Program-made: the position numbers and the translations under genes | Shown: in pieces, positions 3,305-40,608 of the stretch | Layout: every line of letters starts with the position of its first letter | Position numbering within the stretch: position 1 is the first letter of the stretch | The notes under the pieces: model-generated | Seen by the model: only the letters and a program-made list of their open reading frames with translations | Database searches by the model: none | What the model was told of the DNA's origin: nothing | Assembly: GCF_023721835.1 (NCBI RefSeq) | Contig: NZ_JAMKFE010000008.1 | Span: forward strand, 1-64,000 | DNA: 64,000 nt | Source: Caldimonas mangrovi | GTDB taxonomy: Bacteria; Pseudomonadota; Gammaproteobacteria; Burkholderiales; Burkholderiaceae_C | Reading direction: 5' to 3'

Positions 3305-3415
3305 CAACGGAACAGGACATCCAGAGCCATGCGCCATCGTCTCCAACGATCGGGACGATCGGCCATGGTGTGCCGTCCAACCGCTCCCAGAGCGACTCGA
3401 AGCAGAAAGCGACCT

Positions 3416-4756: not shown

Positions 4757-4846
4757 CACCCGCTCGCACCGCCCCCGAGGAGTGCGGCCGGCGGACCGCG
4801 GTGCCGGGCAGGGCCGGCGCCGCGTTCAACGCGGCCGGTCGACGCG

Positions 4847-6239: not shown

Positions 6240-6460
6240 TCGTGCATCTCCCTGTTGACAGCGTTGGCGATGATGGCTGCGTCGTGCCGCGCGAGGTGTT
6301 TCCATGCGTTCCGGCTCCGGACGGCCCGGCACGACGCGAGTGCGGGCACAAATGCGGTGCCGATGCGCCGCACCGACGCGCGCCCGACAGGCATCGCAGG
6401 CGGCTGCGAGGGAACGGCAGTTGCTGCACATTAGCATCACCCTGCGAAAGTGCCTTTTCC

Positions 6461-7798: not shown

Positions 7799-7820
7799 CG
7801 CAGACAGGGGCGAAGCCGAC

Positions 7821-8708: not shown

Positions 8709-8913
8709 CGGTGCACGTGAGCGGCGCTGGAGCGACCCGAGCAGGCATAGACGAGAGGGACCGTCGCAGGGCGCAGGGTGGTTCGCATGGGGGAGTCTTC
8801 CAGACGATGCCCGGCCGAAGGCGCGAGGATTGCTCTGCCTATCGGGCCGCTGTTGCGCTGCCCGGTCCGGATGCCGGCGCATCGGGCGGGAAGGACCCCA
8901 GGACCCCCAAGCG

Positions 8914-11900
8914 ATGGATGCATGGCGTTCTCCGAAGCTGCTCTCGTGGCTCGTGCTGGCCGCCGGAGGGGCGCTGGCGCTGGCCGCCGGCCTGTGGCAA
9001 AAGCGTGTCAACGACGAAGTCGTCAGCGGGCGCTTCGAACGGCTGGTGGTGCAGACGGCCGAGCAGGTGCAGGATCGGCTGCAACTCTACGAGTACGGAC
9101 TGCGTGCCGCGCGCGGGGCCGTCATCGCCGCGGGCGGCGAGGCGATCACGCGAGAAAGCTTCCAGCGCTATGCCAGGTCTCGCGACATTCAGAGCGAGTT
9201 TCCCGGGGCCCGCGGTTTCGGCTTCGTGCGTCGCGTGTCGGTCGAGCAGGAGGCCGCCTTCCTGGCCAGGGCACGAGCCGACGGCTGGCCCGATTTCACG
9301 ATCCGCCAACTGGCGCCGCACCAGGGTGAACGTTATGTCATCCAGTATGTCGAGCCGGTGGAACTCAACCAGGAGGCGATCGGGCTTGACATCGCTTCGG
9401 AGACCAATCGACGCGAAGCGGCCGAACTTGCGTCACGCACTGGCGAGCCGACATTGACAGGTCCCATTACCCTGGTGCAGGCGAGCGGGAAGAAGCAGCG
9501 GTCCTTCCTGTTGCTGCTGGCGGTGTACGGCGGCGTCGAGACGCCTTTGACGGTCGCCGAACGTCGGAACGAAGTGTTCGGCTGGGCCTATACCCCGCTG
9601 GTGACCGACGAGGTGCTGCAGGACTTCGACTACGCCGACGGCCAGTTCACGCTGGCGCTCTACGACCGCGCGCCGGGCGGCGTGCCGGAAAGATTTTTCT
9701 CTTCGCTGGGCTGGTCGCCGGCACCGCCGGGAGCGCTGGTGAAAGAAGTCGGCGCGTCGGTTTTCGGACGCATCTGGACCGTGCAGGTGCAGGCGTTGCC
9801 GCCGTTCTTCCTCGGCCTCAATCTGCGCAACCCGCTTGCGCTGACCGGCACGGTTGCGGCGACCGCGCTGCTGCTGGCGGTGTTGACCCATGTCTATCAG
9901 CTCGGTGCGGGCCGCGCGCGGGTGGCCGGCTTGCAGCGCGCCCGCATGGCGGCGATCGTGGAGAACTCGACGGACGCGATCGTCGGGCAGACCCTCGACG
10001 GTACCGTGCGCGAATGGAACCCCGCCGCGCAGCGGATGTTCGGCTACACCGTGGCCGAGGCGGTCGGCCGCACCGTGCGCCACCTGATCGTGCCCGACGA
10101 CCGGGCCGACGAAGAAACCGCAATGCTCGAGCGCGTCGGGCGCGGGCAGAGCGTGGCCGGCTTCGATACGGTGCGGCGCCGGCGCGACGGCCGCATGCTG
10201 GACGTGTCGGTCTCGGTGGCGCCGATCCGCCTGGACAGCGGCGAGATCATCGGTGTCGCGAAGACCCTGCGTGACATCAGCGACCGCAAGAGCGCCGAGG
10301 CCGAGATCCTGCAGCTCAACGCGACGCTGGAGCAGCAGGTGGCGCAGCGCACCGCGGAGCTGAGGCAGATGGCGGCGCGCGAACGGGCCATCTTGACGAG
10401 TGCAGGCAGCGCCATCATCGCGGTCGACAACGACGGCATCGTCACGATGTTCAACCCGGCGGCCGAGGCGATGCTCGGGTGCCGCGCTGACGAGGTTGTC
10501 GGCAAGGTGAGCGCGCTGGTGTTCCACGACCCGGAGGAATTGCGGCAACGCGGCGAGGTCCTGGCGAGAAAGCTCGGCCGCCCGGTCGATGCCGCCGAAC
10601 TCATGACTGGCCCTGCGCGTGACGGCGACATCGTCCGCAGCGAGTGGACCTACGTTCGTCGGGACGGAACGCGGCTGCCGGTGTTGCTGACGCTGAGCGC
10701 GTTGCGCGAGGGAAGCGGCGAGACGCTGGGATTCATTGGCGTCGCGACCGACCTGTCGGACCGCGCGCGGCTGCAGCAGGAACTCCTCGACGTGAACCGC
10801 GCACTGACCGAACGCAGTGCCCAGGCCGAAGCGGCCACGCGAGCGAAGAGCGAGTTCCTCGCCAACATGAGCCACGAGATCCGCACCCCGATGAACGCGA
10901 TCGTCGGACTGACCGAGATGATGCGGCGCGACGTCAAGGATCCCGTGCTGCGCGACCGGCTCGACAAGATGTCCGATGCGTCGCGCCACCTGCTGGCGAT
11001 CATCAACAACGTGCTGGACCTGTCCAAGATCGAGGCCGGCCGGCTGGTGCTGGAGCAGGTCGAGTTCGAACTGAGCGACGTGCTGGAGAACACCTGCGCG
11101 CTGGTGATCGAGGACGCGCGGCGCAAGGGCCTGGAGGTGGTGATCGATATCGACGACGTGCCACGCCGGTTGGTGGGCGACCCCATCCGGCTGGGCCAGG
11201 CGCTGCTCAACCTGCTGAGCAACGCGGTGAAGTTCACGCCTGCGGGTTTTGTCGTGTTGCGGTGTCTGCTCGCCGATGGCACGCAAGGCGAACAGATGCT
11301 GCGCTTCGAGGTCACAGACAGCGGTGTCGGTATTTCACCGGCGGTGATCGACAAGTTGTTCCGGCCGTTCGAGCAGGCCGATACCTCGACGACACGTCGC
11401 TACGGAGGCTCCGGGCTCGGCCTTGCGATCACCCGCCAGCTCGCCGACCTGATGGGCGGACACGCCGGCGCCCGCAGCCGCGAAGGGCGTGGCAGCACCT
11501 TCTGGTTCACCGCCCGCTTTGCCCCGGCGCCACGGGTCGACGAGCCGAGCAGCACAGGCGTCGCGGTACGCTGTCTGATGCTCGACGACCTGCCGGCGAC
11601 GGCGCAGGCGGTGGCGTCCATGCTGGAACGACTCGGCGTGCAGGCGGACCAGGCGACCCGCCTCGACGAGGCGGCGCACCTGCTGCTGCAGGCTCAGCGG
11701 CGCGGTCGGCCGTACGAGCTGCTGGTGTGGGATGCCGACCTGGCGCCGCTGCCCCCGGCACTGCGCAAATTGCAGCATGACCAGCCCGCAGTCGTCTTCA
11801 CGACGATCCGGAACGCCGACGCATGGCGGCCCGCGTTGCGCGGGCTGAGCCGGGCACAAGTGCTCGAAAAGCCGCTGACGCTGCGGGTGCTGGAGAACGC

Positions 11901-20402: not shown

Positions 20403-20601
20403 GGTGTCTCCTCCGCTGGTGATGGGCTGGTGCCCGCTACGCGGAAGAATCCTTCGGCCGGCGCGCGCGCGGAGGCCGATATGCAAGCGCATGTGACCGG
20501 TTTGTGCGCTGCTCGCCTGCCGCGCGGGTTGCAGGCCCTCCCCGAAATGCAGGGGGAGGCAGGCGCGCCATGTGCTCTCGTCGCGTCGGCGCGACAGCGG
20601 G

Positions 20602-21783
20602 TCAGCGCGGTCGTCGGTGCCGCGCGAATCCGATCATCGCACCGAGGCCTGCCAACATCAGCGCCCAGGTCTGCGGCTCGGGCACCGGCACCACTTCGAA
20701 GGCCAGGAACTGCGTGGTTTGCGTGCCGGAGAAGTTGTTGTCGGACACGACCACCAGCGTGCGATGGCCATTGGCCAGCGTCTGCCCCCACGACAGCCCT
20801 TCGCTGTTGTCGAGCACGAGTCCGTGGGCGGCCTTCAACGCGTCAAAGTCGAGCAGCAGCTCGCGGCTCATCGGTGTGTAGCCGGCATCCAGCAGGCCGG
20901 GCAGGCCCAGCACGTTGCTGGCGCCCTCGAAGCTGGTGAGCACCAGCCGGATGGTGTTGCCGGGGCCGGAGGCGTAGCCACGCTCCAGCGCGATGAACTC
21001 GCTGTCCGACAGCGCGAGCAGCTCGGGCAGCCCGTTGTCCTGGAAGCCCGGCGCTTCGGTCGGCGCCTTGGGGATCGGCGGCAGCTCGTAGGCATATTGC
21101 GCCAGCGTGTCGCCGGTGGCCGGGTCGAGTGTCGTGACGCGGACGACGCTGCCTTGTTCCAGCGTGGTGATCGGGCCGTCCTGCACCAGGGCGTCCTCGT
21201 TTGCGGTGACCACCGTGCCGTTGGGGGTCACGGCCAGCGCTTCGAAGACCTTGTTGTTGCGTCCCCCGGTGCCGGGGTGGTCGGCGTAGTCGAACATCGC
21301 CGGTGTCTTGAACTCGCGCACGAAGCTGCCGTCGGACCGCATTTCGCGCACGAAAGGCTGGTAGCGCAAGGCCGGGTCGGCGTTCCAGTTGCCTTCGCTC
21401 GACCAGTACAGGTGGCCGTTGGGCGCCACGCGCAAACCCTCGGGGTCCACCGTGCGCGCATCGGCCGGAAAGGCCGTGCCGTCCGGCCGCTGCAGCAGCG
21501 TCTGCTGCTGGAGGGTGATGCCGTGGAAGCCGGACGCGTCGTAGTCGAGCCCGAGCTTGTAGAAGCGCGGGGTGCCGCGTTCGCCGCCGCGGTCGTCCGC
21601 CAGGGCGTAGTAGCTGCCGTCCGGCGCGCGGTCGATGCCGGAAATGCCGCCGAACTCGACACCTTCGAAAAGGGTGCCGGTGGCGATGCTGTGCTGGCCG
21701 ATGTAGCGCAGCGCCAGGCCGGCGGCGTCGGCCCGCCCGAGCGCCAGCGCGAGCAGCGCGATGGCAAGGGTCCACGGTCTCAT
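20602..21783 (-). CDS. phytase-like esterase domain protein with PEP-CTERM tail
   Basis: A 393-residue exported protein. It has a signal peptide (to about residue 20), then a domain of the 'esterase-like activity of phytase' family (PF13449) recognisable by FEGVEFGGISGIDRAPDGSY near the N-terminus, TVDPEGLRVAPNG and VFEALAVTPNG; this fold is a six-bladed beta-propeller. It ends with VPVPEPQTWALMLAGLGAMI and a basic tail, a PEP-CTERM signal for exosortase processing. The ATG at 21783 has GGGAG seven bases upstream. The family is linked to phosphodiester or phytate-type esterase activity, but the biological substrate is not established. It lies 200 bases upstream of the large PEP-CTERM gene on the same strand, so joint expression is possible. 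Confidence 0.85.
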   Translation of the reverse strand: MRPWTLAIALLALALGRADAAGLALRYIGQHSIATGTLFEGVEFGGISGIDRAPDGSYYALADDRGGERGTPRFYKLGLDYDASGFHGITLQQQTLLQRPDGTAFPADARTVDPEGLRVAPNGHLYWSSEGNWNADPALRYQPFVREMRSDGSFVREFKTPAMFDYADHPGTGGRNNKVFEALAVTPNGTVVTANEDALVQDGPITTLEQGSVVRVTTLDPATGDTLAQYAYELPPIPKAPTEAPGFQDNGLPELLALSDSEFIALERGYASGPGNTIRLVLTSFEGASNVLGLPGLLDAGYTPMSRELLLDFDALKAAHGLVLDNSEGLSWGQTLANGHRTLVVVSDNNFSGTQTTQFLAFEVVPVPEPQTWALMLAGLGAMIGFARHRRPR

Positions 21784-23311: not shown

Positions 23312-24829
<1,518 letters not shown>

Positions 24830-28686: not shown

Positions 28687-29316
28687 ATGGGATTGGTGCT
28701 GAACCTCGGCTGCGGCTCGCAGCTCGGCGACGGGTGGGTCAACGTCGACTACGCGCTCGGTGCGCGCATGGCGAAGCTGCCGTTGTTCAGGCCGCTGAAC
28801 AGTCGACTGAAAATGTTCAAGTTCGACTGGGACGACCGGATCTACCTGCACGACCTGACCAAGCCCTTCCCGTGGCCGTCCGACAGCGCCGACGCCATCT
28901 ACAGCTCGCACACGCTGGAGCACCTGTCGCGTGAAGACGGCCGGCGCTTCCTGCGCGAGTGCCATCGCGTACTGCGCGCAGGCGGCTTGGTGCGTATCGT
29001 CGTGCCCGACTTGCGCGAGGCGGTCAACGATTATCTGGAGGGCCGGGTGAAGGCCGACGACTTCGTCGAGCAGCTCGGCGTGCTCTACATTCCCGGCGGC
29101 AGCCCGCTCAAGCGCAAGCTGGCGCCCTTCGTGCAATTCCCGCACAAGTGCATGTACGACACCGGGCGGCTGGTCGAGATCCTCGGCGAGATCGGCTTCG
29201 ACGCCGCGCCGCGGCAGCCCTTCGACAGTGGGATCGACGGGCTCGAGCAGGTCGAGCTCGAGAACCGCACCCACCATGCGGTGATCGTCGAAGGCAGCAA
29301 GCGCACTGTCCAATGA
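28687..29316 (+). CDS. class I SAM-dependent methyltransferase
   Basis: A 209-residue soluble methyltransferase. Motif I is LVLNLGCGSQ at the very N-terminus, followed by GWVNVDY. The acidic and post-I region AIYSSHTLEHLSREDGRRFL and RVLRAGGLVRIVVPDLREAV match the Methyltransf_11 type group often found in polysaccharide or lipid loci. The substrate is unknown. The ATG at 28687 follows AAGGAG at 28675-28680. A perfect hairpin (CGGCGC-TTC-GCGCCG, 28660-28674) abuts that ribosome site and could affect initiation. The 292-base leader holds no other gene. The gene lies immediately upstream of the sigma-54 promoter region of the transporter cluster. Confidence 0.88.
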   Translation: MGLVLNLGCGSQLGDGWVNVDYALGARMAKLPLFRPLNSRLKMFKFDWDDRIYLHDLTKPFPWPSDSADAIYSSHTLEHLSREDGRRFLRECHRVLRAGGLVRIVVPDLREAVNDYLEGRVKADDFVEQLGVLYIPGGSPLKRKLAPFVQFPHKCMYDTGRLVEILGEIGFDAAPRQPFDSGIDGLEQVELENRTHHAVIVEGSKRTVQ

Positions 29317-29322
29317 CTGGGC

Positions 29323-29345
29323 ATGTGTCCGTATTCAGGACACAT
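29323..29345. promoter_or_regulatory. inverted repeat, candidate activator-binding site
   Basis: ATGTGTCC at 29323-29330 and GGACACAT at 29338-29345 form perfect 8-base arms around seven bases. It lies about 120-140 bases upstream of the candidate -24 element, the usual distance for an enhancer-binding-protein site. It contains the same TGTCC/GGACA half-sites as the repeat at 29371-29417. It could instead be a weak terminator for the methyltransferase, but there is no T-run. Confidence 0.45.
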
Positions 29346-29370
29346 GGCGCGGGAAAACGCTGAAAACTTT

Positions 29371-29417
29371 CCGGACACCCGCTCGTTTCCGAGACGTGCG
29401 GGTTAACCCGTGTCCGG
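29371..29417. promoter_or_regulatory. second inverted repeat with the same half-site
   Basis: CCGGACAC at 29371-29378 pairs with GTGTCCGG at 29410-29417 across 31 bases, and an inner pair (CCCGC 29378-29382, GCGGG 29398-29402) could extend the stem. Sharing GGACAC/GTGTCC with the repeat 25 bases upstream suggests a set of protein-binding half-sites for one regulator. The distance to the -24 element is about 48 bases from its end. Confidence 0.4.
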
Positions 29418-29464
29418 TTCAGAAAACCGTTTGATTTCAAATGCTTGCGGTTTGGGCCCTGTGG

Positions 29465-29480
29465 TGGTCCCGGTCTTGCA
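29465..29480 (+). promoter_or_regulatory. candidate sigma-54 (-24/-12) promoter
   Basis: TGGTCCCGGTCTTGCA matches the sigma-54 consensus TGGCACG-N4-TTGCW with the invariant GG and GC at the correct spacing and a perfect TTGCA at -12. The mismatches are confined to the less conserved -24 positions. The start codon of the binding-protein gene is about 60 bases downstream of the expected transcription start. The two inverted repeats upstream and a sigma-54 activator gene in the same window support the assignment. Confidence 0.5.
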
Positions 29481-29551
29481 TTCCCGGGGTGCGGCCGCCG
29501 AGAGGGGCGGTCGCACCACGGCGATTCAGCCGCCCAGGACAAGGAGACACC

Positions 29552-30751
29552 ATGACCGCCCTTTTTGCACGCCGAGCCGTACTCGGGCTCGCCGCCACCG
29601 CTCTTGCTGCTGCCGCCGGTCTCGCCACTGCGCAGGGCAATGAGATCCGCATCGCTCACATCTACAGCAAGACCGGCCCGCTCGAAGCGTATGGCAAGCA
29701 GACCGCCACCGGTTTCATGATGGGCCTCGAATACGCGACGCAGGGCACGATGACGGTCGCCGGCAAGAAGCTGGTGGTTCTGGAGCGCGACGACCAGGGC
29801 AAGCCCGACGTGGGCAAGTCGCTGCTCGCCGCTGCGTATGGCGACGACAAGGTCGATCTGGCGGTGGGTCCGACCTCGTCCGGCGTTGCGCTGGCGATGC
29901 TGCCGGTGGCCGAGGAATACAAGAAGATCCTGCTGGTCGAGCCGGCCGTGGCCGACTCCATCACCGGCGACAAGTGGAACAAATACATCTTCCGCACCGG
30001 CCGCAACAGCTCGCAGGATGCGATCTCGAACGCAGTGGCGCTCGACAAGGAAGGCACCGTGGTCGCCACGCTGGCGCAGGACTACGCCTTCGGGCGCGAC
30101 GGCGTGGCCGCGTTCAAGGGGGCCCTGCGCAAGGCCAAGCTGGTGCACGAGGAATACCTGCCGACCAACACGACCGACTTCACCGCCGGCGCGCAACGGC
30201 TGTTCGACGCGCTGAAGGACCAGCCTGGGCGCAAGGTCATCTTCATCATCTGGGCCGGTGCCGGCAACCCGTTCAAGATCGCCGACCTCGACCCCAAGCG
30301 CTACGGCATCGAGATCGCCACCGGCGGCAACATCCTGCCGGCGATGGTGAACTACAAGCAGTTCCCCGGCATGGAAGGCGCGACCTACTACTACTTCGGC
30401 ATCCCGAAGAACCCGGTCAACGAGTGGCTGGTGGCCAACCACTACAAGAAGTTCCAGACGCCGCCGGACTTCTTCACCGCCGGCGGCATGGCGGCGGGCA
30501 TGGCCGTGGTCGAAGCCCTTACGAAGACCAACGGCGACACCGGCACCAACAAGCTCATCAAGACGATGGAGGGCATGCGCTTCCAGACGCCGAAGGGCGA
30601 GATGACTTTCCGCGCCGAGGACCACCAGGCCATGCAGTCGATGTACCACTTCAAGATCAAGAACGACCCGGCCTTCGCCTGGGGCGTGCCTGAGCTGGTG
30701 CGCGAGATCCGCCCCATCGAGATGCAGGTGCCGATCCGCAACAAGCGCTGA
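29552..30751 (+). CDS. ABC transporter periplasmic binding protein, branched-chain (HAAT) type
   Basis: A 399-residue periplasmic solute-binding protein (Peripla_BP_6, LivJ-like). The signal peptide (about 1-27) ends near GLATAQGN. The mature start EIRIAHIYSKTGPLEAYGKQ and TSSGVALAMLPVAEEYKKIL are typical of the family. The ATG at 29552 follows AAGGAGA. It is the first gene behind the candidate sigma-54 promoter and precedes a PHB depolymerase and the cognate ATPase and permease genes. The family binds branched-chain amino acids, amides, urea or small carboxylic acids. From the neighbours I infer 3-hydroxybutyrate or its short oligomers as ligand. The ligand is not readable from the sequence alone. 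Confidence 0.88.
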   Translation: MTALFARRAVLGLAATALAAAAGLATAQGNEIRIAHIYSKTGPLEAYGKQTATGFMMGLEYATQGTMTVAGKKLVVLERDDQGKPDVGKSLLAAAYGDDKVDLAVGPTSSGVALAMLPVAEEYKKILLVEPAVADSITGDKWNKYIFRTGRNSSQDAISNAVALDKEGTVVATLAQDYAFGRDGVAAFKGALRKAKLVHEEYLPTNTTDFTAGAQRLFDALKDQPGRKVIFIIWAGAGNPFKIADLDPKRYGIEIATGGNILPAMVNYKQFPGMEGATYYYFGIPKNPVNEWLVANHYKKFQTPPDFFTAGGMAAGMAVVEALTKTNGDTGTNKLIKTMEGMRFQTPKGEMTFRAEDHQAMQSMYHFKIKNDPAFAWGVPELVREIRPIEMQVPIRNKR

Positions 30752-30812
30752 TCCGTCCGGGCTGCGACGCACGAGACAGGCTCCGCAGCCCCTTCCTCTT
30801 CACATCGAGCAA

Positions 30813-30845
30813 CCCCCGGGCACATGGGGGCGAGGGTCGCTTTTT
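30813..30845 (+). terminator. weak hairpin with T-run, possible attenuating terminator
   Basis: CCCCC (30813-30817) and GGGGG (30826-30830) form a short stem with an eight-base loop, followed ten bases later by TTTTT (30841-30845). It lies between the binding-protein gene and the depolymerase gene. Partial terminators at this position often keep the binding protein more abundant than downstream products. The distance to the T-run makes it weak. Confidence 0.3.
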
Positions 30846-30875
30846 CCCTTCACCACCAAAAGAGGAGACAGATCG

Positions 30876-32360
30876 ATGATGCATACGATGCGACGCGTGG
30901 CTGCCGCGGCGGCCCTGATGGCGGCCTGCTCCGCGCAGGCCCAGGCGCTCCCCCAGCTCAATGTCGACAAGAGCCGGATCAGCGTGTCGGGCTTGTCGGC
31001 AGGCGGCTTCATGGCCAACCAGCTCGGCTGGGCGCATTCGTCCACCTTCATGGGCGTCGGCGTGTTCGCCGGCGGGCCCTACACCTGCGCGCGACAGAGC
31101 AACTACACGTCGTGCATGTACAACGCGCCGGTCAGCAGCAGCATGCAAAGCGGCATGCAGGCCAACATCAACAACTGGAGCGGCAGCTCGATCGACGCGA
31201 AGGCCAACGTGGCTGCCCAGAAGATCTTCCTGTTCGTCGGCACCAGCGACTACACCGTCGGGCCCAACCCGATGGACGCGCTGAACGCGCAATACGCGAA
31301 CAACGGCGTGCCCGCCGGCAACCTCGAATACGTCAAGCGCAGCGGCACCGCACACACCTTCCCGACCGACTTCGACAGCAGCGGCAACAACGCGTGCGGC
31401 AGCACCGCGTCGCCGTACATCAGCAACTGCGGCTACGACGGCGCCAAGGCCGTGCTGACGAAAATCTACGGCACGCTCAACGCGCGCAACAACGCACCGG
31501 CGGCGGGCAACTACCTGCAGTTCAACCAGGGCGCCTTCACCAGCAACCCCGGCATGGCGTCGACCGGCTGGGTCTACGTGCCGGCCAACTGTGCCGCGGG
31601 CGCGCAATGCAGGCTTCACGTGGCATTGCATGGCTGCGCGCAAAGCCTCACGCACATCGGCGACCGCTTCGTCAGGAACACCGGCTACACCCGCTGGGCC
31701 GACACCAACAGCATCATCGTGCTGTTCCCGCAGGCCAAGGTCGACAGCACCAACCGCAGCACCGCTGCCAGCGGCTCGCTGCCCAACCCCAATGCATGCT
31801 GGGACTGGGTGGGCTGGTACGGCGGCAACTTCGCGCAGAAGGCCGGCAGCCAGATCACCGCGATCAAGGCGATGGTGGACCACGTTGCCGGCGGCGCGCC
31901 GGGTGCGTCGCTGCCGCCGCCGACCGGCGTCAGCACTTCGGGTGCCACGAGCAGCAGCATGGTCGTCAGCTGGGCCGGCGTGCAGGGTGCCGCGGGCTAC
32001 AACGTCTACCGCGGCGGCAGCAAGGTGAATGCGCAGCTGGTGGCCGGCACGAGCTATACCGACACCGGACTCGCGGCCGGCACGACGTACAGCTGGACCG
32101 TGCGCAGCGTCGACGGCAACGGCGCCGAGAGCCCACCGTCATCGCCGGCCACCGGCACCACGACCGGCTCGCCGCCGCCCACCGCGACCTGTCACACGTC
32201 GAGCAACTACGCCCACACCACTGCAGGCCGCGCGTACCAGAGCGGCGGATATGCCCATGCGAACGGGTCCCACCAGAACATGGGCCTGTGGAACGTCTTC
32301 GTGACGACGACCTTGAAACAGACGGGGCCGAACCACTACGTCATCGGCACCTGCCCGTGA
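30876..32360 (+). CDS. phaZ: extracellular polyhydroxybutyrate depolymerase
   Basis: A 494-residue secreted esterase that hydrolyses solid PHB. It has a signal peptide (about 1-24), then a catalytic domain to about residue 345. The lipase box is SGLSAGGF with Ser41, with Asp125 (VGTSDYTV) and His160 (SGTAHTFP) completing the triad. The oxyanion motif VALHGCAQS lies C-terminal to the Ser, which is the mark of a type 2 catalytic domain. A fibronectin type III linker follows (about 348-430, AAGYNVYRGGSKV and GTTYSWTVRSVDG). A C-terminal PHB-binding domain completes it (MGLWNVFVTTTLKQTG, YVIGTCP). The ATG at 30876 has GAGGAGA before it. It sits within the transporter and oligomer-hydrolase cluster, giving a complete external degradation path. 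Confidence 0.95.
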   Translation: MMHTMRRVAAAAALMAACSAQAQALPQLNVDKSRISVSGLSAGGFMANQLGWAHSSTFMGVGVFAGGPYTCARQSNYTSCMYNAPVSSSMQSGMQANINNWSGSSIDAKANVAAQKIFLFVGTSDYTVGPNPMDALNAQYANNGVPAGNLEYVKRSGTAHTFPTDFDSSGNNACGSTASPYISNCGYDGAKAVLTKIYGTLNARNNAPAAGNYLQFNQGAFTSNPGMASTGWVYVPANCAAGAQCRLHVALHGCAQSLTHIGDRFVRNTGYTRWADTNSIIVLFPQAKVDSTNRSTAASGSLPNPNACWDWVGWYGGNFAQKAGSQITAIKAMVDHVAGGAPGASLPPPTGVSTSGATSSSMVVSWAGVQGAAGYNVYRGGSKVNAQLVAGTSYTDTGLAAGTTYSWTVRSVDGNGAESPPSSPATGTTTGSPPPTATCHTSSNYAHTTAGRAYQSGGYAHANGSHQNMGLWNVFVTTTLKQTGPNHYVIGTCP

Positions 32361-32401
32361 CGTCGTCGCCGGCCTCCTCGAGAAAGATGCGGTGAACAGC
32401 G

Positions 32402-33166
32402 ATGCCCCCTGTGCTTGAAACCCTGGACCTCACGATCCGCTTCGGCGGGCACGTGGCCGTGGACCGCGTCAGCTGTGCCTTTTCTGCCGGCACGCTGACG
32501 GCCATCGTCGGGCCCAACGGCGCAGGCAAGACCACGTACTTCAACCTCATTTCGGGGCAGCTCAAGGCGACAAGCGGCAGCGTGCGCCTCGAGGGGGAAG
32601 ACGTCACCGGCTTGCCTGCGCCGTTGCGCACCCGACGCGGGCTCGGGCGAGCGTTCCAGCTGACCCAGCTGTTCCCGAATCTTTCCGTGCTCGAGAACGT
32701 GCGCCTGGCGGTGCAGGCGCGCCACGGAGGCGCCCTGCAGCTGTTCAGCGTGTGGCTGGACCACAAGCGATGGATCGAGGAAGCGCACGCGGTGCTGGAG
32801 GCCGTGCACCTGGGCGACAAGGCGCAGGCGCCGGCGTCCAGCCTGCCGCACGGCGACCAGCGCAAGCTGGAGGTGGCGCTGATGATGGCGCTCGACCCGA
32901 AGGTCTACATGTTCGACGAGCCCACGGCAGGGATGAGCGTCGACGAAGTGCCGGTGGTGCTGGACCTGATCCGCGAGCTGAAGCAGCGGCGCGACAAGAC
33001 CATCCTGCTGGTCGAGCACAAGATGGACGTGGTGCGCGAGCTGGCGGATCGGATCATCGTCCTGCACAACGGGCAGTTGCTGGCCGACGGCGAACCCTCC
33101 GTGGTGATGGGGTTGCCGGTGGTGCAGAGCGCCTACATGGGCACGGCCGCAGTGGAGGAGGCATGA
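32402..33166 (+). CDS. ABC transporter ATP-binding protein, LivG type
   Basis: A 254-residue cytoplasmic ATPase for the HAAT transporter. Walker A is GPNGAGKT, the Q-loop region GLGRAFQLTQLFPNLSVLEN is typical of LivG, and Walker B is VYMFDEPTAGMS. The signature is SLPHGDQRKLEVA, the relaxed form often seen in LivG rather than LSGGQ. The ATG at 32402 lies 41 bases after the depolymerase gene, and its ribosome site is weak. It pairs with the LivF-type gene downstream. It powers import through the two permeases. Confidence 0.93.
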   Translation: MPPVLETLDLTIRFGGHVAVDRVSCAFSAGTLTAIVGPNGAGKTTYFNLISGQLKATSGSVRLEGEDVTGLPAPLRTRRGLGRAFQLTQLFPNLSVLENVRLAVQARHGGALQLFSVWLDHKRWIEEAHAVLEAVHLGDKAQAPASSLPHGDQRKLEVALMMALDPKVYMFDEPTAGMSVDEVPVVLDLIRELKQRRDKTILLVEHKMDVVRELADRIIVLHNGQLLADGEPSVVMGLPVVQSAYMGTAAVEEA

Positions 33167-33257
33167 CGATTGTGCTTCACGCGAAGGGCGGGGCCCGCAT
33201 CGCCGTGCAGGGGTGGCGGCGCACGCACATGCAAACGCAACTTTCCGAAGGTGCCCC

Positions 33258-34007
33258 ATGAGCACACCTGTTCTCGAACTGCGAGGCGTCCACACGCACA
33301 TCGGCGCCTATCACATCCTCCATGGCGTCGACTTCACCGTCCCCCAGGGCGAGGTGACGATGCTCCTCGGCCGCAACGGCGCCGGCAAGACCACCACGCT
33401 GCGCACCGTCATGGGCTTGTGGCAGGCCACGCAGGGCCACATCACTTTCGATGGCCAGCCCATCGGCGGTGAAGGCAGGCGCCTGGCCACGCCCGAGATT
33501 GCGCAGAAGGGCATCGCCTACGTTCCCGAGAGCATGGGCATCTTCTCCGACCTGTCGGTCAAGGAGAACCTGCTGCTGGCCGCCCGCGGTGCCCGCACCG
33601 CCGACGACCTCGACACGCAACGCCTCGAATGGATCTTCGGGCTGTTTCCGGCGCTGAAGAAGTTCTGGCTCTACCCGGCCGGCAAGCTGTCGGGCGGGCA
33701 GAAGCAGATGCTGTCCGTGGCGCGGGCCATCGTCGAGCCGCGCCGGCTGCTGCTGATCGACGAGCCGAGCAAGGGCCTGGCCCCCGCGATCATCCAGAAC
33801 CTCATCAGCGCCCTGCGCGAGCTGAAGACCACGCAGACCACCATCCTGCTGGTGGAGCAGAACTTCGCGATGGCCCGCGCGCTGGGCGACTCGGTGGCGG
33901 TGATGGACGACGGCCGCGTGGTGCACCGGGGCCGCATGGACGAGCTGGCAGCGGACGAGGACCTGCAGCAGCGGCTGCTGGGCTTGTCGCTCGCCGCGCA
34001 TCAATGA
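33258..34007 (+). CDS. ABC transporter ATP-binding protein, LivF type
   Basis: A 249-residue second ATPase of the HAAT transporter. Walker A GRNGAGKT, signature LSGGQKQMLSVARA and Walker B LLLIDEPSKGLAP are complete, and GIAYVPESMGIFSDLSVKEN is the LivF-type Q-loop region. The ATG at 33258 follows GAAGG, and the frame extends upstream only without a ribosome site. There are 91 bases between it and the LivG-type gene. The permease gene begins 20 bases after its stop, with an unused overlapping ATG at 34004. Confidence 0.93.
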   Translation: MSTPVLELRGVHTHIGAYHILHGVDFTVPQGEVTMLLGRNGAGKTTTLRTVMGLWQATQGHITFDGQPIGGEGRRLATPEIAQKGIAYVPESMGIFSDLSVKENLLLAARGARTADDLDTQRLEWIFGLFPALKKFWLYPAGKLSGGQKQMLSVARAIVEPRRLLLIDEPSKGLAPAIIQNLISALRELKTTQTTILLVEQNFAMARALGDSVAVMDDGRVVHRGRMDELAADEDLQQRLLGLSLAAHQ

Positions 34008-34027
34008 GCAAGAAAGAGGGTAGGCCC

Positions 34028-35077
34028 ATGACCACTGCCGCCGTTTCCGAGCCCGCCGCCGGCATGCCGCCGCCGGCGCCCACGCCGGCCCAGGTGCCGC
34101 GTGCCAAGTTCGACGTCGTCCCGCTGCTGCTGGTGCTCGGGCTCGTCGCGCTGGCGTTGCCGATGATCGGCTCGGTGCCGACCTGGCTGACGCTGACCAT
34201 GGCGGGCCTGGCGATGGGCATGATTGTCTTCATCATCGCGTCGGGCCTGACCCTGGTGTTCGGCCTGATGGACGTGCTCAATTTCGGCCACGGCGTGTTC
34301 ATCGCGCTCGGCGCCTTCGTCGCCACCAGCGTGTTCGGGCTGATGGGCGACTGGACGGCCACGGCCTCGATCTCGCGCAACCTCGTCGCGGTGTTCTCGG
34401 CCATGCTGGTTGCGATGGCGATGGCCGGTGCGGTCGGCTATGCGTTCGAGCGTGTGGTCGTGCGGCCGGTCTACGGCCAGCACCTGAAGCAGATTCTCAT
34501 CACGATGGGCGGCATGATCATCGGCGAAGAGATCATCAAGGTGATCTGGGGGCCTCAGCAGATTCCGCTGCCGCTGCCGGAGGCGCTGCGCGGCTCTTTC
34601 TTCATCGCCGACGCAGCCATCGAGAAGTACCGCGTGCTGGCCGTCGTGATCGGCGCAGCGGTGCTGGCGGCGATGCTGTTCGTGCTCAACCGCACCAAGA
34701 TCGGCCTGCTGATCCGCGCCGGCGTGCAGGACCGAGAGATGGTCGAGAGCCTGGGCTACCGCATCAAGCGGCTGTTCATCGGCGTGTTTGTCGTCGGCTC
34801 CGGCCTCGCGGGCCTGGGCGGCGTGCTGTGGGGCCTGTACCAGCAGATGGTCATCCCCCAGATGGGCACGCAGGTCAACGTGCTGCTGTTCATCGTGATC
34901 ATCATCGGCGGGCTGGGCTCGACGCTGGGCTGCTTCGTCGGCGCGCTGCTGGTCGGGCTGATGGCCAACTACACCGGCTTCCTGGCGCCCAAGGTCGCGC
35001 TGTTCTCCAACATCGGGTTGATGGTCGCCATCCTGCTGTGGCGCCCGCAGGGCCTGTACCCCGTGACCAGTCGCTGA
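34028..35077 (+). CDS. branched-chain-type ABC permease, LivH type
   Basis: A 349-residue inner-membrane permease with about eight to nine spans. A 35-residue Pro/Ala-rich cytoplasmic N-terminus precedes the first span (DVVPLLLVLGLVALALPMIG). LTLVFGLMDVLNFGHGVFIALGAF is the LivH hallmark, and the cytoplasmic loop AGVQDREMVESLGYRIKRLF contacts the ATPase. The start at 34028 is chosen because GAGGGTAGG lies just upstream. A start at 34004 would overlap the ATPase stop but lacks a ribosome site. Confidence 0.93.
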   Translation: MTTAAVSEPAAGMPPPAPTPAQVPRAKFDVVPLLLVLGLVALALPMIGSVPTWLTLTMAGLAMGMIVFIIASGLTLVFGLMDVLNFGHGVFIALGAFVATSVFGLMGDWTATASISRNLVAVFSAMLVAMAMAGAVGYAFERVVVRPVYGQHLKQILITMGGMIIGEEIIKVIWGPQQIPLPLPEALRGSFFIADAAIEKYRVLAVVIGAAVLAAMLFVLNRTKIGLLIRAGVQDREMVESLGYRIKRLFIGVFVVGSGLAGLGGVLWGLYQQMVIPQMGTQVNVLLFIVIIIGGLGSTLGCFVGALLVGLMANYTGFLAPKVALFSNIGLMVAILLWRPQGLYPVTSR

Positions 35078-35090
35078 AGAGGTGCATGCC

Positions 35091-36164
35091 ATGCTGAAAC
35101 GTCTGCTCTCGCACGACCTGCCCAAGAGCCGTGCGCTGGCGGTGGCGCTGGTGCTCATCGTCGCCTGCCTGCTGCTGGTGCCCTTCATCTTCCCGGGCAG
35201 CAAGTCGCTCAACGTCGCGGCGAAGATCCTGATCTTCGTCGTGCTGGTGGCCAGCTACGACTTGCTGCTGGGCTACACCGGCATCGTCAGCTTCGCGCAC
35301 ACGATGTTCTTCGGCATCGGGGCCTACGGCGTCGCCGTCGCATCGACCCGCATGGGCGAGGGCTGGGCCGCGCTGGCCGTCGGCGTCGTGCTCGCGCTGC
35401 TGCTGTCGCTGGTGCTGTCCTTCGTCATCGGGCTGTTCAGCCTGCGGGTCAAGGCGATCTTCTACGCGATGATCACGCTGGCCGTGGCGTCGGCCTTCCA
35501 GACGCTGGCGTCGCAGCTGTCGGAGTTCACCGGCGGCGAAGACGGCCTCACGTTCCGCGTGCCGGAATGGCTGAGCCCGAGCTTCGAGCCGTTCGAGAAC
35601 GAATTCTTCGGCGTGCTGATCGACGGCCGCCTCATCAGCTACTACCTGCTGTTCGTGGTGGCGTTGGTGCTGGTGCTGCTGATGCTGCGCATCGTCAACT
35701 CGCCGTTCGGGCGCGTGCTGCAGGCCATCCGCGAGAACGACTTCAGGGCCGAGGCGATCGGCTACCGCACGGTGGTCTACCGCACGCTGTCCAACGTGCT
35801 GTCGGCGCTGTTCGCCACGCTGGCCGGCTGCCTGCTGGCGGTCTGGCTGCGATACAACGGACCGGACACCTCGCTGTCCTTCGAGATCATGCTCGACATC
35901 CTGCTGATCGTCGTGATCGGCGGCATGGGAACGATCTACGGCGCGGTCATCGGCAGCGTGCTGTTCGTGCTGGCCCAGAACTACCTGCAGGACCTGATGC
36001 GTCTGGGCGCCGGCGCCGTCGAGGGCGTGCCGGTGGCTTCGGAGCTCATCTCCCCCGACCGCTGGCTGCTCTGGCTGGGTGTGCTGTTCGTGCTGTGTGT
36101 CTATCACTTCCCGAGCGGCATCGTCGGCCGGTTGAGGCAAAAGGCGCTCGCATTGGCGCGCTGA
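35091..36164 (+). CDS. branched-chain-type ABC permease, LivM type
   Basis: A 357-residue inner-membrane permease, the partner of the LivH-type protein. SYDLLLGYTGIVSFAHTMFFGIGAYG is the LivM hallmark (quoted in parts: LLLGYTGIVSFAH), and the ATPase-contact loop is AIRENDFRAEAIGYRT. The ATG at 35091 has AGAGG eight bases upstream; a GTG at 35082 is in frame but overlaps that ribosome site. It starts 13 bases after the LivH-type stop. A 99-base gap then leads to the oligomer-hydrolase gene. Confidence 0.93.
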   Translation: MLKRLLSHDLPKSRALAVALVLIVACLLLVPFIFPGSKSLNVAAKILIFVVLVASYDLLLGYTGIVSFAHTMFFGIGAYGVAVASTRMGEGWAALAVGVVLALLLSLVLSFVIGLFSLRVKAIFYAMITLAVASAFQTLASQLSEFTGGEDGLTFRVPEWLSPSFEPFENEFFGVLIDGRLISYYLLFVVALVLVLLMLRIVNSPFGRVLQAIRENDFRAEAIGYRTVVYRTLSNVLSALFATLAGCLLAVWLRYNGPDTSLSFEIMLDILLIVVIGGMGTIYGAVIGSVLFVLAQNYLQDLMRLGAGAVEGVPVASELISPDRWLLWLGVLFVLCVYHFPSGIVGRLRQKALALAR

Positions 36165-36263
36165 GCCGAAGGTCCCATCGAAGACAGGCACGAGAGGCGC
36201 GGCCAGCGCGGACGGGCCCGGAACACAACACCAAAGATCCATCCAGAGGACCAGGAGACAACG

Positions 36264-38390
36264 ATGAAACACCCCCTGCGCTTGGTTGGCGCATCGACGG
36301 CGGCAGCGCTTGCCGTGCTGGCGGCAGGCTGCGGCGGCGGCAGCAACGGCGACGGCCTGAACGCCAAGCCGTCGTACGTCGGCGACGTCGGCATCACCGA
36401 GTACGACGGTACGACCGACGACTTGTTGACGGCCGGGCTCGGCCAGAGCGGCCTGGCCGGCGTGCTGCCCGACCCTGCGGACCCCGCCAGCCCGACGCCT
36501 GCCGAGCTGCGCCGTGCCGCCATCTACAACAACTATCGGGCGATGCTCGACATGACGGCAGCCGGCGGCTACGGCAGCCTGTACGGTCCCCGCCTCGATG
36601 CGCAGGGCAACGACACCGGCGGTGAGGGCCGGATCGCCGGCAGCGAGTTCATCGCCTACAGCGACGACGGCACCGGGCGCGAGAACGTCACGCTGATGGT
36701 GCAACTGCCGGCCAGCTTCGACCCGGAGCATCCCTGCATCGTGACCGCCACGTCGTCCGGCTCCCGGGGGATCTATGGCGCCATCTCGACCGGCGAGTGG
36801 GGGCTCAAGCGAGGCTGCGCCGTTGCCTACACCGACAAGGGCACGGGCGGCGCGCCGCACGACCTGGCGGCCGACACCGTGCCGCTGATCGACGGCACGC
36901 GCGCCAGCGCCGCCGACGCCGGCGACGACGCGGCGTTCAATGCCGGCCTCAGCGATGCGGAACTCGCGGCGTTCAACACCGCCACGCCAAACCGGTTGGC
37001 CTTCAAGCATGCCCACTCGCAGCGCAACCCCGAGAAGGACTGGGGCCGTTACACGCTGCAGGCGGTGGAGTTCGCGCTGTACGTGATCAACGAACGCCAC
37101 GGTGAGGTGGACGAGCGTGGCCGGCGCGAGCGCAGTTTCAAGGCGAGCAACACGCTGGTCATCGCCTCGAGCATCTCCAACGGCGGCGGGGCCGCGATCG
37201 CTGCAGCCGAGCAGGACACACGCGGCCTGATCGACGGCGTCGCGGTGGCCGAGCCGGCGGTGGAGCTGCCGACCACGCCGGGCGTCCAGGTGCAGCGCGG
37301 CGCCGCGGTGGTACCGACGGCCGGCAAGCCGTTGATCGACTTCACGACGTACGCCAACCTGTTCCAGCCCTGTGCAGCGTTGTCGACGCAGCTCGCCGGC
37401 ACGCCGTTCCAGGCGGCTTACGCGGCGGGCTTCGGCTTCGTCGCCGGCAACCGCTGCGCCTCGCTGAGGGCCAAGGGGCTGCTGAGCGCCGACACCACCG
37501 TGGCGCAGGCCGACGAGGCGTTGCAGAAGCTGCGCGACTACGGTTGGGAGGCAGACTCCGATGCGCTGCAGGCTTCGCACATCGCGTTCGAGATCGCGCC
37601 GGCCGTCAGCATCACCTTCGCCAATGCCTTGGCACGCGCCAGCGTGAAGGACCACCTGTGCGGCTACAGCTACGCGGCGGCTACCGGTGCCGGCGCCGTC
37701 ACGGCGATGGACACAACCCAGCTGGCACAGATGTTCGCCACCGGCAATGGCGTGCCGCCGCAAGCCGCACCCAACGTGCAACTGATCAACAACCTGAACC
37801 CGGCCGGCCCGGTGCGTGACCTGCTGTCGTTCTCGCCGTCGACCAGCGCGATGGACTGGAACGTCGACGGTGCGCTGTGCCTGCGCAACCTGCTTGCCGG
37901 CACCGACGCGGCAGCGCGTGCACTGCAGGCAGGTCTCGACGAGACACGGCGCAACGGCAACCTGCGCGGCAAACCGGCCGTGATCGTGCATGGCCGCAAC
38001 GACGCGCTGCTGCCGGTGAACCATACCTCGCGTCCGTACTACGCGCTCAACAAGACGGTGGAAGGCAACGCGAGCCGGCTGAGCTATCTGGAAGTCGAGA
38101 ACGCGCAGCACTTCGACGGCTTCATCGGCCTGCCGGCGGTGCTGCCCGGCTACGACACGCGCTACGTGCCGCTGCACGTCTACCTGAATCGCGCGCTCGA
38201 CGCGGTCTATGCCCACCTGCGCGACGGTACGGCGCTGCCGCCCAGCCAGGTGGTGCGCACGACGCCGCGAGGCGGCACGCCGGGCGCCGCACCGGCGATC
38301 ACGGCGGCGAACGTCCCGCCGCCCTCCGCGGCACCGGCGGCCGGCGACCGCATCACGATGAGCGGCACTACCGTCCAGGTGCCCGATTAG
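36264..38390 (+). CDS. D-3-hydroxybutyrate oligomer hydrolase
   Basis: A 708-residue esterase of the 3HB-oligomer hydrolase family (PF10605), which cleaves dimers and longer oligomers released by PHB depolymerases to 3-hydroxybutyrate. The nucleophile lies in IASSISNGGGAAI (Ser305), the pattern of the family, and VHGRNDALLPVNH and VENAQHFDGF supply likely Asp and His. The N-terminus has a lipoprotein-like signal (ALAVLAAGC, Cys23), so it should be periplasmic or attached to a membrane rather than free in the medium. The length fits the family. The ATG at 36264 has AGGAGA upstream. Its place directly after the permeases is the strongest hint to the transporter's substrate. Confidence 0.9.
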   Translation: MKHPLRLVGASTAAALAVLAAGCGGGSNGDGLNAKPSYVGDVGITEYDGTTDDLLTAGLGQSGLAGVLPDPADPASPTPAELRRAAIYNNYRAMLDMTAAGGYGSLYGPRLDAQGNDTGGEGRIAGSEFIAYSDDGTGRENVTLMVQLPASFDPEHPCIVTATSSGSRGIYGAISTGEWGLKRGCAVAYTDKGTGGAPHDLAADTVPLIDGTRASAADAGDDAAFNAGLSDAELAAFNTATPNRLAFKHAHSQRNPEKDWGRYTLQAVEFALYVINERHGEVDERGRRERSFKASNTLVIASSISNGGGAAIAAAEQDTRGLIDGVAVAEPAVELPTTPGVQVQRGAAVVPTAGKPLIDFTTYANLFQPCAALSTQLAGTPFQAAYAAGFGFVAGNRCASLRAKGLLSADTTVAQADEALQKLRDYGWEADSDALQASHIAFEIAPAVSITFANALARASVKDHLCGYSYAAATGAGAVTAMDTTQLAQMFATGNGVPPQAAPNVQLINNLNPAGPVRDLLSFSPSTSAMDWNVDGALCLRNLLAGTDAAARALQAGLDETRRNGNLRGKPAVIVHGRNDALLPVNHTSRPYYALNKTVEGNASRLSYLEVENAQHFDGFIGLPAVLPGYDTRYVPLHVYLNRALDAVYAHLRDGTALPPSQVVRTTPRGGTPGAAPAITAANVPPPSAAPAAGDRITMSGTTVQVPD

Positions 38391-38404
38391 CAGGAAGGTG
38401 CTCC

Positions 38405-39247
38405 ATGAGCTTCACGTCGAACTACGTCAGCTGTGCCGGCCGCGAGATCCACTACACCGAGTGGGGTTCGCAGCACGGCGAGACGGTCATCGCCTGGCAC
38501 GGACTGGCACGCACCGGGCGCGACATGGACGAGGTGGCCGAGCACCTCGCGTCGCGCTACCGCGTGATCTGCCCGGACACCCTCGGCCGCGGGCTGTCGC
38601 AATGGAGCCCGGACCCGGTCAACGAGTACCGGTTGTCGTTCTACGTGAAGCTTGCGACCGCATTGGCGGACCAGCTCGACCTCGACCGCTTCCATTGGCT
38701 CGGCACATCGATGGGCGGCGCGATCGGCACGCTGGCCGCGGCCACCACGCTGCGTGGGCGCATCCGCCGGCTGATCCTCAACGACAACGGTCCCCGGCTC
38801 GCCGACGCGGCGCTGGACCGCATCCGCACGTACGCCGGCAACCCGCCGGCTTTCGAGCGGGTCAGCGAGCTGGAGCAGTTCCTGCGCACGGTCTACCAGC
38901 CGTATGGCTGGCTGTCGGACGCACAGTGGCGCCGCATGACGGAAACATCGACACGCCGGCTGCCCAACGGCCTGGTGACGACACACTACGACCCGGCCAT
39001 GGCCGGCCAGTTCACGCACCACCCGAACGACTACGACCTCTGGGACGCCTACGACAGTCTCGACATCCCGGTGCTGTGCCTGCGCGGCGAAACCTCCGAC
39101 CTGCTGCTGCCCGAGACCGCCGACGAGATGCGCCGCCGCGGCCCCCGCGCCGTGGTGGTCACCATCCCCGGCTGCGGGCATGCGCCGGCCCTCAATGTGC
39201 CGGACCAGATCGACCTGGTCGAACGGTTCTTCACCGCCGCCGACTGA
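38405..39247 (+). CDS. alpha/beta hydrolase
   Basis: A 280-residue cytoplasmic alpha/beta hydrolase. The oxyanion region is IAWHGLARTGRD, the nucleophile Ser102 lies in LGTSMGGAIG, and the Asp (GETSDLLLPE) and His (GCGHAPALN) follow in order. There is no signal peptide. The ATG at 38405 has AGGAAGG upstream and lies 14 bases after the oligomer-hydrolase stop, so it is the last gene of the cluster. An intracellular esterase cleaving imported 3-hydroxybutyrate oligomers would fit, but sequence only supports an ester hydrolase of unknown substrate. Confidence 0.85.
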   Translation: MSFTSNYVSCAGREIHYTEWGSQHGETVIAWHGLARTGRDMDEVAEHLASRYRVICPDTLGRGLSQWSPDPVNEYRLSFYVKLATALADQLDLDRFHWLGTSMGGAIGTLAAATTLRGRIRRLILNDNGPRLADAALDRIRTYAGNPPAFERVSELEQFLRTVYQPYGWLSDAQWRRMTETSTRRLPNGLVTTHYDPAMAGQFTHHPNDYDLWDAYDSLDIPVLCLRGETSDLLLPETADEMRRRGPRAVVVTIPGCGHAPALNVPDQIDLVERFFTAAD

Positions 39248-39417
39248 CCGGCTCAGCGCTGCCGCGAGACCGCACCCGAGCGGTGGTCGTTGATACAGCC
39301 CTTCCGGGCCCTCGGTGTTCAGTACGAGCCTCGACGTGCCCTATCAAACCGAACTGGCGGACGTTGTTTCAGGGCCGCCAACGACGCACCCAGGGGAGCC
39401 GCACCGCCGGCGATCCG

Positions 39418-39495
39418 CGCGGACACCGCGGATCCGGCTGCGCCGGTCCATCGGTGTCGCCCCTTGAGGGGCGGCCGCAGGCCGTAGGGGTGGCC
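39418..39495 (-). repeat. dispersed GC-rich intergenic repeat, inverted copy
   Basis: Read on the minus strand, it has the order GGCCACCCCTACGG, CCCCTCAAGGGGCGACACC, then GCAGCCGGATCCGCGGTGTC, matching the copies at 52161-52329, 54431-54514 and 55659-55742. It contains self-complementary parts (CCCCTCAAGGGG) and lies between two convergent genes, where it could help end transcription. Confidence 0.7.
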
Positions 39496-39498
39496 TCA

Positions 39499-40608
39499 TC
39501 ACCGCCGGAACTTGCCGTTCGGCCCGATGATGGACAGGTCGGCGTAGTCCAGGCCGGAGTGGTCGGTCGGGCTGTAGCTGATCTCCAGCCCGCCGATGTC
39601 GACCTTGCGCATGCTCTCCAGTCCCTGGATCAGTTTCGCCGAGGTGGGGTTGGGCCCTGCACGGCGCAGGCCTTCGACCAGCACCTTCGCCGCGGCATAG
39701 CCCTCGAGCATGGCCGGGGTCACTTCCTCGACGCCCTTGGCCTTGGCGAAGTCGGCAGCTTCCTTCACGATCGGCGCCGACAACGAGCGCTCATAAGGAA
39801 AGATCTGCGAGACGATGGTGCCGCGCGCATGTTCACCGAGCTGCTTGATGAAGCCCCCGGATGCGTTGTTGGAGACCGTGACGATCTGGGCACGCACCCC
39901 TTGCCCGCGTATCGCCTTCGTGCCGTCCGAGACGGCTCCGGCTGAGCCGATGAACAGGATGGCCTGTGGCTCGTGCTGCTTCGCCACGGCGGCGATCTGG
40001 GCGATGTCGGGCTTGGTGCGGTCGAACTTCTGGTGGAACACCGGCGTCAGCTTGCCGCCGGCGAAGCCCTTCAGCGCGCCGGTGGCGACGTCGGCCCCGA
40101 AGGTGTCGTCGACCTGCATGATGCCGATGCGGGAGATGCCGATCGTCGCCAGATGGTGGATGGCCCGTTCCGCCTCGCGCTGGTACGTTGCCCGCACGTT
40201 GAAGATGTAGGGGTGGACCGGGTCGTGCAGCAGCATCGCGCCGGTGCTGGGCGCCACCAGCGGCACCTTGTGTTCCTTGATGACAGGCATCAGGGCCTGC
40301 GAGTGCGGCGTGCCGCGGTTCAGGAACAGCGCGATGACCTGCTGCTCCTCGATCAGTTTGCGGCCCAGTTCGGCCGTCAGCTTGGGGTCGAACTTGTCGT
40401 CGACCGAGATCAGCTCGATCTTCTGGCCGTGAACACCGCCGCGTGCATTGATGGCGTCGATGTAGAGCCGGGCGCCGTCGGTGTTCTCCTTCACGCCCGA
40501 GGCCACGGGCCCCGTGAAGCCTGAAGGCTGACCGATGCGAATCTGCGCTGCGGCCGGGCCGCACGCGATCAGCCCCGCCACGGCGAGGCCCATCAACAAC
40601 TGTTTCAT
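39499..40608 (-). CDS. second ABC periplasmic binding protein, HAAT type
   Basis: A 369-residue Peripla_BP_6 binding protein with a signal peptide ending near GPAAAQIR. Mature motifs IGQPSGFTGPVASGVKENTD, YIDAINARGGVHGQKIELI and DDKFDPKLTAELGRKLIEEQ are typical. It is clearly a different subgroup from the protein at 29552-30751. It is convergent with the transporter cluster and has no permease or ATPase of its own nearby, so it may deliver a second ligand to the adjacent transporter. The ATG at 40608 follows AAGGACGG on the minus strand. The ligand is unknown. Confidence 0.88.
   Translation of the reverse strand: MKQLLMGLAVAGLIACGPAAAQIRIGQPSGFTGPVASGVKENTDGARLYIDAINARGGVHGQKIELISVDDKFDPKLTAELGRKLIEEQQVIALFLNRGTPHSQALMPVIKEHKVPLVAPSTGAMLLHDPVHPYIFNVRATYQREAERAIHHLATIGISRIGIMQVDDTFGADVATGALKGFAGGKLTPVFHQKFDRTKPDIAQIAAVAKQHEPQAILFIGSAGAVSDGTKAIRGQGVRAQIVTVSNNASGGFIKQLGEHARGTIVSQIFPYERSLSAPIVKEAADFAKAKGVEEVTPAMLEGYAAAKVLVEGLRRAGPNPTSAKLIQGLESMRKVDIGGLEISYSPTDHSGLDYADLSIIGPNGKFRR

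Follow-up and report, generated by a model that had tools for sequence, protein, structure and literature searches.

The first 64 kb of contig C52 (NZ_JAMKFE010000008.1) in the 5.5 Mb genome of Caldimonas mangrovi, called the window below, carries a HAAT-type ATP-binding cassette (ABC) importer among genes for degradation of poly(3-hydroxybutyrate) (PHB), and the question raised by this locus is what the importer takes up. A first-pass annotation of the sequence had proposed 3-hydroxybutyrate (3HB) or its short oligomers. We estimate a probability of roughly 0.7 that the locus is a PHB-utilisation unit in which the HAAT system imports 3HB and/or short oligomers under an HbcR-like sigma-54 activator. 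This cargo was favoured because PHB hydrolases recur in the cluster and because the activator family is linked to 3HB dehydrogenase. The features concerned, in window coordinates, were as follows.

23336–24829, + strand: HbcR-like sigma-54 activator, probable cluster regulator (ATG at 23336; best of 15 own-genome matches, 65% identity, to a relative's activator)
29326–29342, no strand: candidate upstream activator site TGTCCGTATTCAGGACA (11/16 to the palindrome TGTCTGAAWTTCAGACA, at −226)
29465–29480, + strand: sigma-54 −24/−12 promoter candidate TGGTCCCGGTCTTGCA (GG-N10-GC core, position conserved in relatives)
29552–30751, + strand: HAAT periplasmic substrate-binding protein (SBP; PF13458, 170 bits)
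30876–32360, + strand: type 2 extracellular short-chain-length polyhydroxyalkanoate depolymerase (PhaZ2; NF050059, 375 bits, cut-off 280; fn3 domain PF00041)
32402–33166, + strand: LivG-type ATPase (PF00005)
33258–34007, + strand: LivF-type ATPase (PF00005)
34028–35077, + strand: LivH-type permease (PF02653)
35082–36164, + strand: LivM-type permease (PF02653)
36264–38390, + strand: 3HB-oligomer hydrolase (OligoH; PF10605, 1061 bits, cut-off 27)
38405–39247, + strand: alpha/beta hydrolase (ABH; PF00561, 72 bits; signal peptide not seen by eye)

The eight genes from SBP to ABH were consecutive, complete frames on the + strand (29552–39247) with successive gaps of 124, 41, 91, 20, 4, 99, and 14 bases, in agreement with the first-pass description of a one-strand series with short gaps. 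The depolymerase and oligomer hydrolase calls, made there from catalytic motifs, were borne out by curated model scores far above the cut-offs (listed above). PhaZ2 had a signal peptide recognised by eye and scored 21.6 bits with Pfam's own PHB esterase model, slightly below the cut-off of 23. OligoH was the single PF10605 copy in the genome, and its N-terminus was lipobox-like as read by eye; among 40 called OligoH homologues, 29 had a lipobox by a strict pattern, and near-lipoboxes were seen by eye in some of the other 11. The two ATPases scored 100 and 107 bits, and the two permeases 115 and 132 bits.

The adjacent Peripla_BP_6-type SBP, two BPD_transp_2 permeases, and two ABC ATPases identified the transporter as a HAAT importer by composition. 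The SBP reached only 55 bits with the curated LivJ-type model (cut-off 477) and 49 bits with the UrtA model (cut-off 492.75), which placed the system outside the amino-acid and urea subgroups. In LivJ, Glu226 is the acidic residue for the alpha-ammonium group. A low-identity alignment, inspected by eye and shifted by one residue at Thr102, placed a non-acidic residue at the SBP position of LivJ Glu226 and a non-Thr residue at that of Thr102. The nearest solved structure was PDB 3n0x (RPA4397; E 4e-172, 69% identity). The predicted SBP model (mean pLDDT 84) was compared by VIA-align 2 only, which re-ranks Foldseek matches and listed 50 neighbours. Five of the seven rows after 3n0x (4evq, 4eyg, 4ey3, 4f06, and 4evs) were SBPs whose solved structures contain a bound compound, given as an aromatic acid in four of the five titles, and these neighbours lend weak support to an acid as the predicted cargo. 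The first-pass annotation had named only amino acids, amides, and urea as HAAT cargo. This proved too narrow, since COG0683 (HAAT-type) SBPs of Rhodopseudomonas palustris are reported, in the accessible text of PMC3223731, to bind aromatic, fatty, and dicarboxylic acids. Its remark that no HAAT importer for 3HB is established held, as none was found in the literature searched by title and abstract, mostly open-access.

To examine conservation of the cluster, the SBP was searched against named genomes, and the best 80 of 587 loci (80–88% identity, by title mostly Burkholderiales, a selection biased to close kin) were compared; gene content was counted wherever 8 kb or more followed SBP, as was the case for 68 loci. 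Genes in relatives were called with a home-made open reading frame picker, and the control upstreams used below contain some false genes. The usual order was SBP-LivG-LivF-LivH-LivM. PhaZ2 and/or OligoH occurred in 34 of the 68 loci and ABH in 57; four had none of the three. Where present in the 80 loci, PhaZ2 always lay between SBP and LivG (20/20) and OligoH always after LivM (28/28), and some PhaZ2 genes were only 37% identical to that of the window (L069, L073). On the SBP tree (95 rows), PhaZ2 required 14 state changes and OligoH 13, with at least 7 and 5, respectively, forced by starred branches; here and on the activator tree below, gains and losses count alike. Because of these changes, we conclude from the sequences that the polymer hydrolases repeatedly entered or left the same two slots. 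The linkage to PHB genes, which the first-pass annotation had proposed to look for in other genomes and on which it had staked its reading, is thus recurrent. Among neighbouring arrangements, SBP was tandem-duplicated at the cluster head in L033 and L036 (75–76% and 86% identity to that of the window), and in L178 (genome G523) OligoH, a porin, and a type 2 depolymerase stood beside another HAAT system (LivG 42% identity); SBP was not found in that genome.

Genome samples were less biased than this selection. Among 60 relatives, SBP was found in 24, PF10605 in 12, and both in 6; the two were in one cluster in 5 of these 6 (exception G007), including G035 (L152), where OligoH matched only in separate pieces and looks internally deleted. 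Of 24 type 2 depolymerase genes in these relatives, 11 lay directly behind SBP, and the family was present in 13/24 relatives with SBP versus 5/36 without. In 300 genomes of the order, SBP was found in 25 and PF10605 in 26 (25 over the cut-off). Both occurred in 5, against about 2.2 expected, a weak co-occurrence, so that adjacency is what counts; they were in one cluster in 4 of the 5 (exception G497). With the two samples pooled (G000 common to both), 8 of 10 distinct genomes with both had them clustered. The eight same-genus loci had PhaZ2 in 6/8 and OligoH at the locus in 0/8. Beyond the order, the SBP family was found in 27 of 397 phylum genomes at E 1e-90, and LivG, LivF, LivH, and LivM were kept in 19 of 20 regions fetched around these SBPs.

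The placement of the cluster behind a candidate sigma-54 promoter, as first annotated, was upheld by comparison. Judged on the window alone, TGGTCCCGGTCTTGCA was rejected as insignificant, sigma-54 matches at two or fewer mismatches numbering 30 against 35.6 expected, and it was accepted only after comparison with relatives. When sites were scored out of 20 with our own weights, all eight same-genus loci had one of at least 18 at −85 to −109, the site of the window scoring 17.5 at −87. A score of at least 17 was reached in 72 of 105 SBP upstreams (the window and some near-duplicate loci included), where shuffles predict 4.3, and by 84 of 1365 other called genes in the same loci. Such a site was present in 52/55 loci with an upstream activator versus 2/14 without, a contrast that the Fisher p overstates, since the sequences share ancestry and do not count as independent cases. 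Two rpoN genes are present in the genome. A sigma-70 scan of 29300–39600 gave 0 sites against 0.7 expected, which says little. Further upstream, the palindrome TGTCTGAAWTTCAGACA had its best match at −200 to −239 in 8/8 same-genus loci; in the window, seven sites reached the 11/16 of TGTCCGTATTCAGGACA, which is not significant alone. At 12/16 or more positions, TGTCTGAAWTTCAGACA was found in 46/56 activator-bearing upstreams, 1/14 without activator, and 18/1340 controls, counts that are partly circular since TGTCTGAAWTTCAGACA was derived from the same upstreams. In Cupriavidus-type loci neither the activator nor the sigma-54 site was found, and most had a TetR-type gene instead. A TetR-type or enoyl-CoA-hydratase-like gene lay upstream in the Cupriavidus-type loci L077, L080, L081, L083, L085, L091, and L140, and an AMP-ligase was called between LivM and OligoH in L077, L080, L085, and L140.

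The presumed partner of this promoter is encoded outside the region treated in the first-pass annotation (29323–39247). In a relative, the activator upstream of SBP had PAS_4, Sigma54_activat, and HTH_8 domains by Pfam. Of the 69 loci where over 3 kb of sequence was available, 55 had such a PAS-AAA+-Fis activator upstream of SBP and in the same orientation (47/67 by a stricter gene-call count). The PAS domains compared were 32–42% identical to that of the window activator (E about 1e-19 to 1e-31), and no PAS match was found in five other activators compared, four of them from the genome of the window. A tree of 51 sequences united the family against the four other own-genome activators with support 100/100; linkage to SBP required 3 state changes on this tree, 2 forced by starred branches, which could correspond to repeated gains or to a gain and a loss.

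Close homologues of the activator occurred in 41 of the 397 phylum genomes at 44 places, 14 of them near SBP (G228 at 11 kb, others within 5 kb). Of the 30 places away from SBP, 24 had a TIGR01963 3HB dehydrogenase (BdhA) within 5 kb, 22 over the cut-off and two slightly below (G129, G216). In 20 fetched regions (the two BdhA regions of the window's own genome and 18 around activator homologues), the transporters beside activators differed in type: an unclassified hydrophobic protein, TRAP systems (L218 and L223 by Pfam; L229 and L233 by eye), a GntP-like permease (L228), and a second HAAT system (L214, L220). In L216 the hydrophobic protein, permease-like and of about 463 residues, lay between activator and BdhA, and nothing useful matched it in Pfam or NCBIfam; BdhA was followed there by acetoacetate-CoA ligase (TIGR01217, 877 bits). 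L214 belongs to the same genome as the window (C23:11000–28000), where positions 1697–9063 encode, all on one strand, LivG, LivF, SBP, LivH, and LivM and directly after them a second activator and BdhA; this system is another candidate for 3HB import. The SBP of this second system resembles PDB 3i09 closely (E 1e-186), a structure that may hold acetoacetate, a point given no weight here. OligoH was found near the activator in two genomes without SBP (L147, L179), and in a distant genome OligoH, activator, and a TRAP transporter stood together (L223), a parallel arrangement with another transporter type. In Pseudomonas aeruginosa the gene order is PA2003-PA2004-PA2005, an arrangement that L216, L224, and L225, among other loci, resemble; this order and the domain make-up suggest that HbcR (PA2005) belongs to the same activator family.

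Taken as a PHB-utilisation unit, the locus would work as follows. Extracellular PhaZ2 would cut PHB into oligomers, and OligoH, probably lipid-anchored, would trim them. The SBP would deliver 3HB, very short oligomers, or both to the ABC transporter LivHMGF; any ester brought in would be cleaved by ABH, which is probably cytosolic. The 3HB dehydrogenases encoded elsewhere in the genome would route the product into central metabolism. The PAS sensor of the HbcR-like activator, presumably sensing 3HB or a 3HB metabolite, would turn on the sigma-54 promoter at 29465, from which the eight genes are probably co-transcribed.

Several observations weigh against this reading. Thirty of the 68 loci keep the transporter and ABH with neither PhaZ2 nor OligoH, and PF10605 was at the locus in only 4 of the 25 SBP genomes of the order sample. 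The transporter core is wider than the PHB link described in the first-pass annotation, and because so many loci lack both hydrolases, the main task of the transporter may extend beyond growth on PHB. Amino-acid and urea binders were also among the 50 listed structural neighbours, at lower Z. The activator was not found in 14 of the 69 loci, and of the 27 phylum genomes with SBP only 14 had it nearby. In the window, other genes occupy the 4.7 kb that separates it from SBP; one of them, a methyltransferase, occurs there in the closest relative, L161, too, and the remainder are labelled by eye only. At six of the 30 activator places away from SBP (G322, G324, G224, G404:C24, G419, and G048), no BdhA within 5 kb scored above or close to the cut-off, and BdhA is outside the cluster in the genome of the window itself, where C23 and C4 carry the copies that pass the cut-off and none lies beside the window activator. 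A DNA specificity shared across the activator family was rejected, as TGTCTGAAWTTCAGACA reached at best 10–12/16 at BdhA-linked loci, which is background level. Finally, the cargo could be another acid, given the loci in which an AMP-ligase, TetR-type, or enoyl-CoA-hydratase-like gene is present instead of the activator.

A bolder form of the PHB-utilisation reading is possible but doubtful. Here the HAAT system would import intact 3HB dimer or trimer, which the conserved ABH would split inside, making it a polyester-oligomer ABC importer, and the activator family would mark the 3HB transporter of each lineage, whether this HAAT, the second HAAT, a TRAP system, or a single permease. It is the conservation of ABH that leaves room for intact-oligomer import.

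Among alternatives, the one that survived best is that the transporter imports another short carboxylate, for instance acetoacetate, crotonate, or a hydroxy or fatty acid of short or medium chain length, with the PHB genes under shared control because all of them feed one pathway. It would suit the loci without PHB hydrolases, as well as the Cupriavidus-type and some distant loci with an AMP-ligase (PF00501), a TetR regulator (PF00440), and an enoyl-CoA-hydratase-like gene (cluster c26, label by eye), and the fatty, dicarboxylic, or aromatic acids bound by the R. palustris COG0683 proteins (accessible text of PMC3223731) also fit it. Both the activator family and the repeated presence of OligoH and PhaZ2 in the cluster favour 3HB instead, and we regard this alternative as unlikely.

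It is also rather improbable that the genes are mere neighbours, with sigma-54 driving SBP and the transporter while PhaZ2 and OligoH are regulated separately, an arrangement compatible with the favoured cargo. The 124-base gap after SBP would allow for it, as would the RNA of this gap, which is somewhat more stably folded than shuffled versions (z −1.5; stability matched by 16 of 200 shuffles); against it, the scan gave no + strand terminator-like site between SBP and the ABH start (6 sites against 4.1 expected on both strands of the region), and the gaps are of 4–124 bases. An ordinary amino-acid or amide importer linked to PHB genes by chance or hitchhiking, which HAAT membership and the amino-acid and urea SBPs among the structural neighbours might suggest, is highly improbable in view of the LivJ and UrtA scores and the recurrent PHB linkage and, more tentatively, of the residues aligned to Glu226 and Thr102.

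Elsewhere in the window, a further HAAT-type SBP at 39499–40608 (− strand) lies between ABH and uvrA with no transporter genes of its own alongside, and a homologue (64–80% identity) adjoins uvrA in four of the eight same-genus loci (L162, L163, L166, and L168). Two − strand proteins at 17832–20492 and 20602–21783 have C-termini that look PEP-CTERM-like.

Should the PHB-utilisation reading hold, it would fill in the uptake step in the degradation of a bioplastic and give the HAAT family a new cargo class. It would also make 'branched-chain amino acid transporter' labels correctable in many Proteobacteria, and the presence of an activator of this family would flag 3HB transporters that belong to several unrelated types.

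Comparison with known systems places the locus as follows. Its nearest solved SBP, RPA4397 of R. palustris (3n0x, above; also 3nnd), has no ligand named in any paper found in our title and abstract search. The R. palustris HAAT SBPs HbaE/RPA0668 and RPA0985 are 20–21% identical to the SBP of the window; their ligands are aromatic, and polymer hydrolases are not mentioned for them in the accessible text of PMC3223731. The HbcR unit has a single permease-like gene between activator and BdhA, whereas at this locus it is a HAAT transporter that comes after the activator, with BdhA encoded elsewhere and no palindrome in common. According to the accessible text of PMC8694187, which cites the primary paper, P. 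aeruginosa HbcR is a sigma-54 activator with an N-terminal PAS domain that regulates (R)-3HB catabolism (RpoN by the cited title), and the window activator is like it in being PAS-bearing, in its sigma-54 type, and in its 3HB theme. The E. coli LivJ/LivK-LivHMGF system has the same five-subunit make-up and families as this locus. It differs in that the SBP described here is far below the curated LivJ score, that the predicted cargo is a hydroxy acid or ester, and that the transporter genes are linked to polymer hydrolases and a sigma-54 activator.

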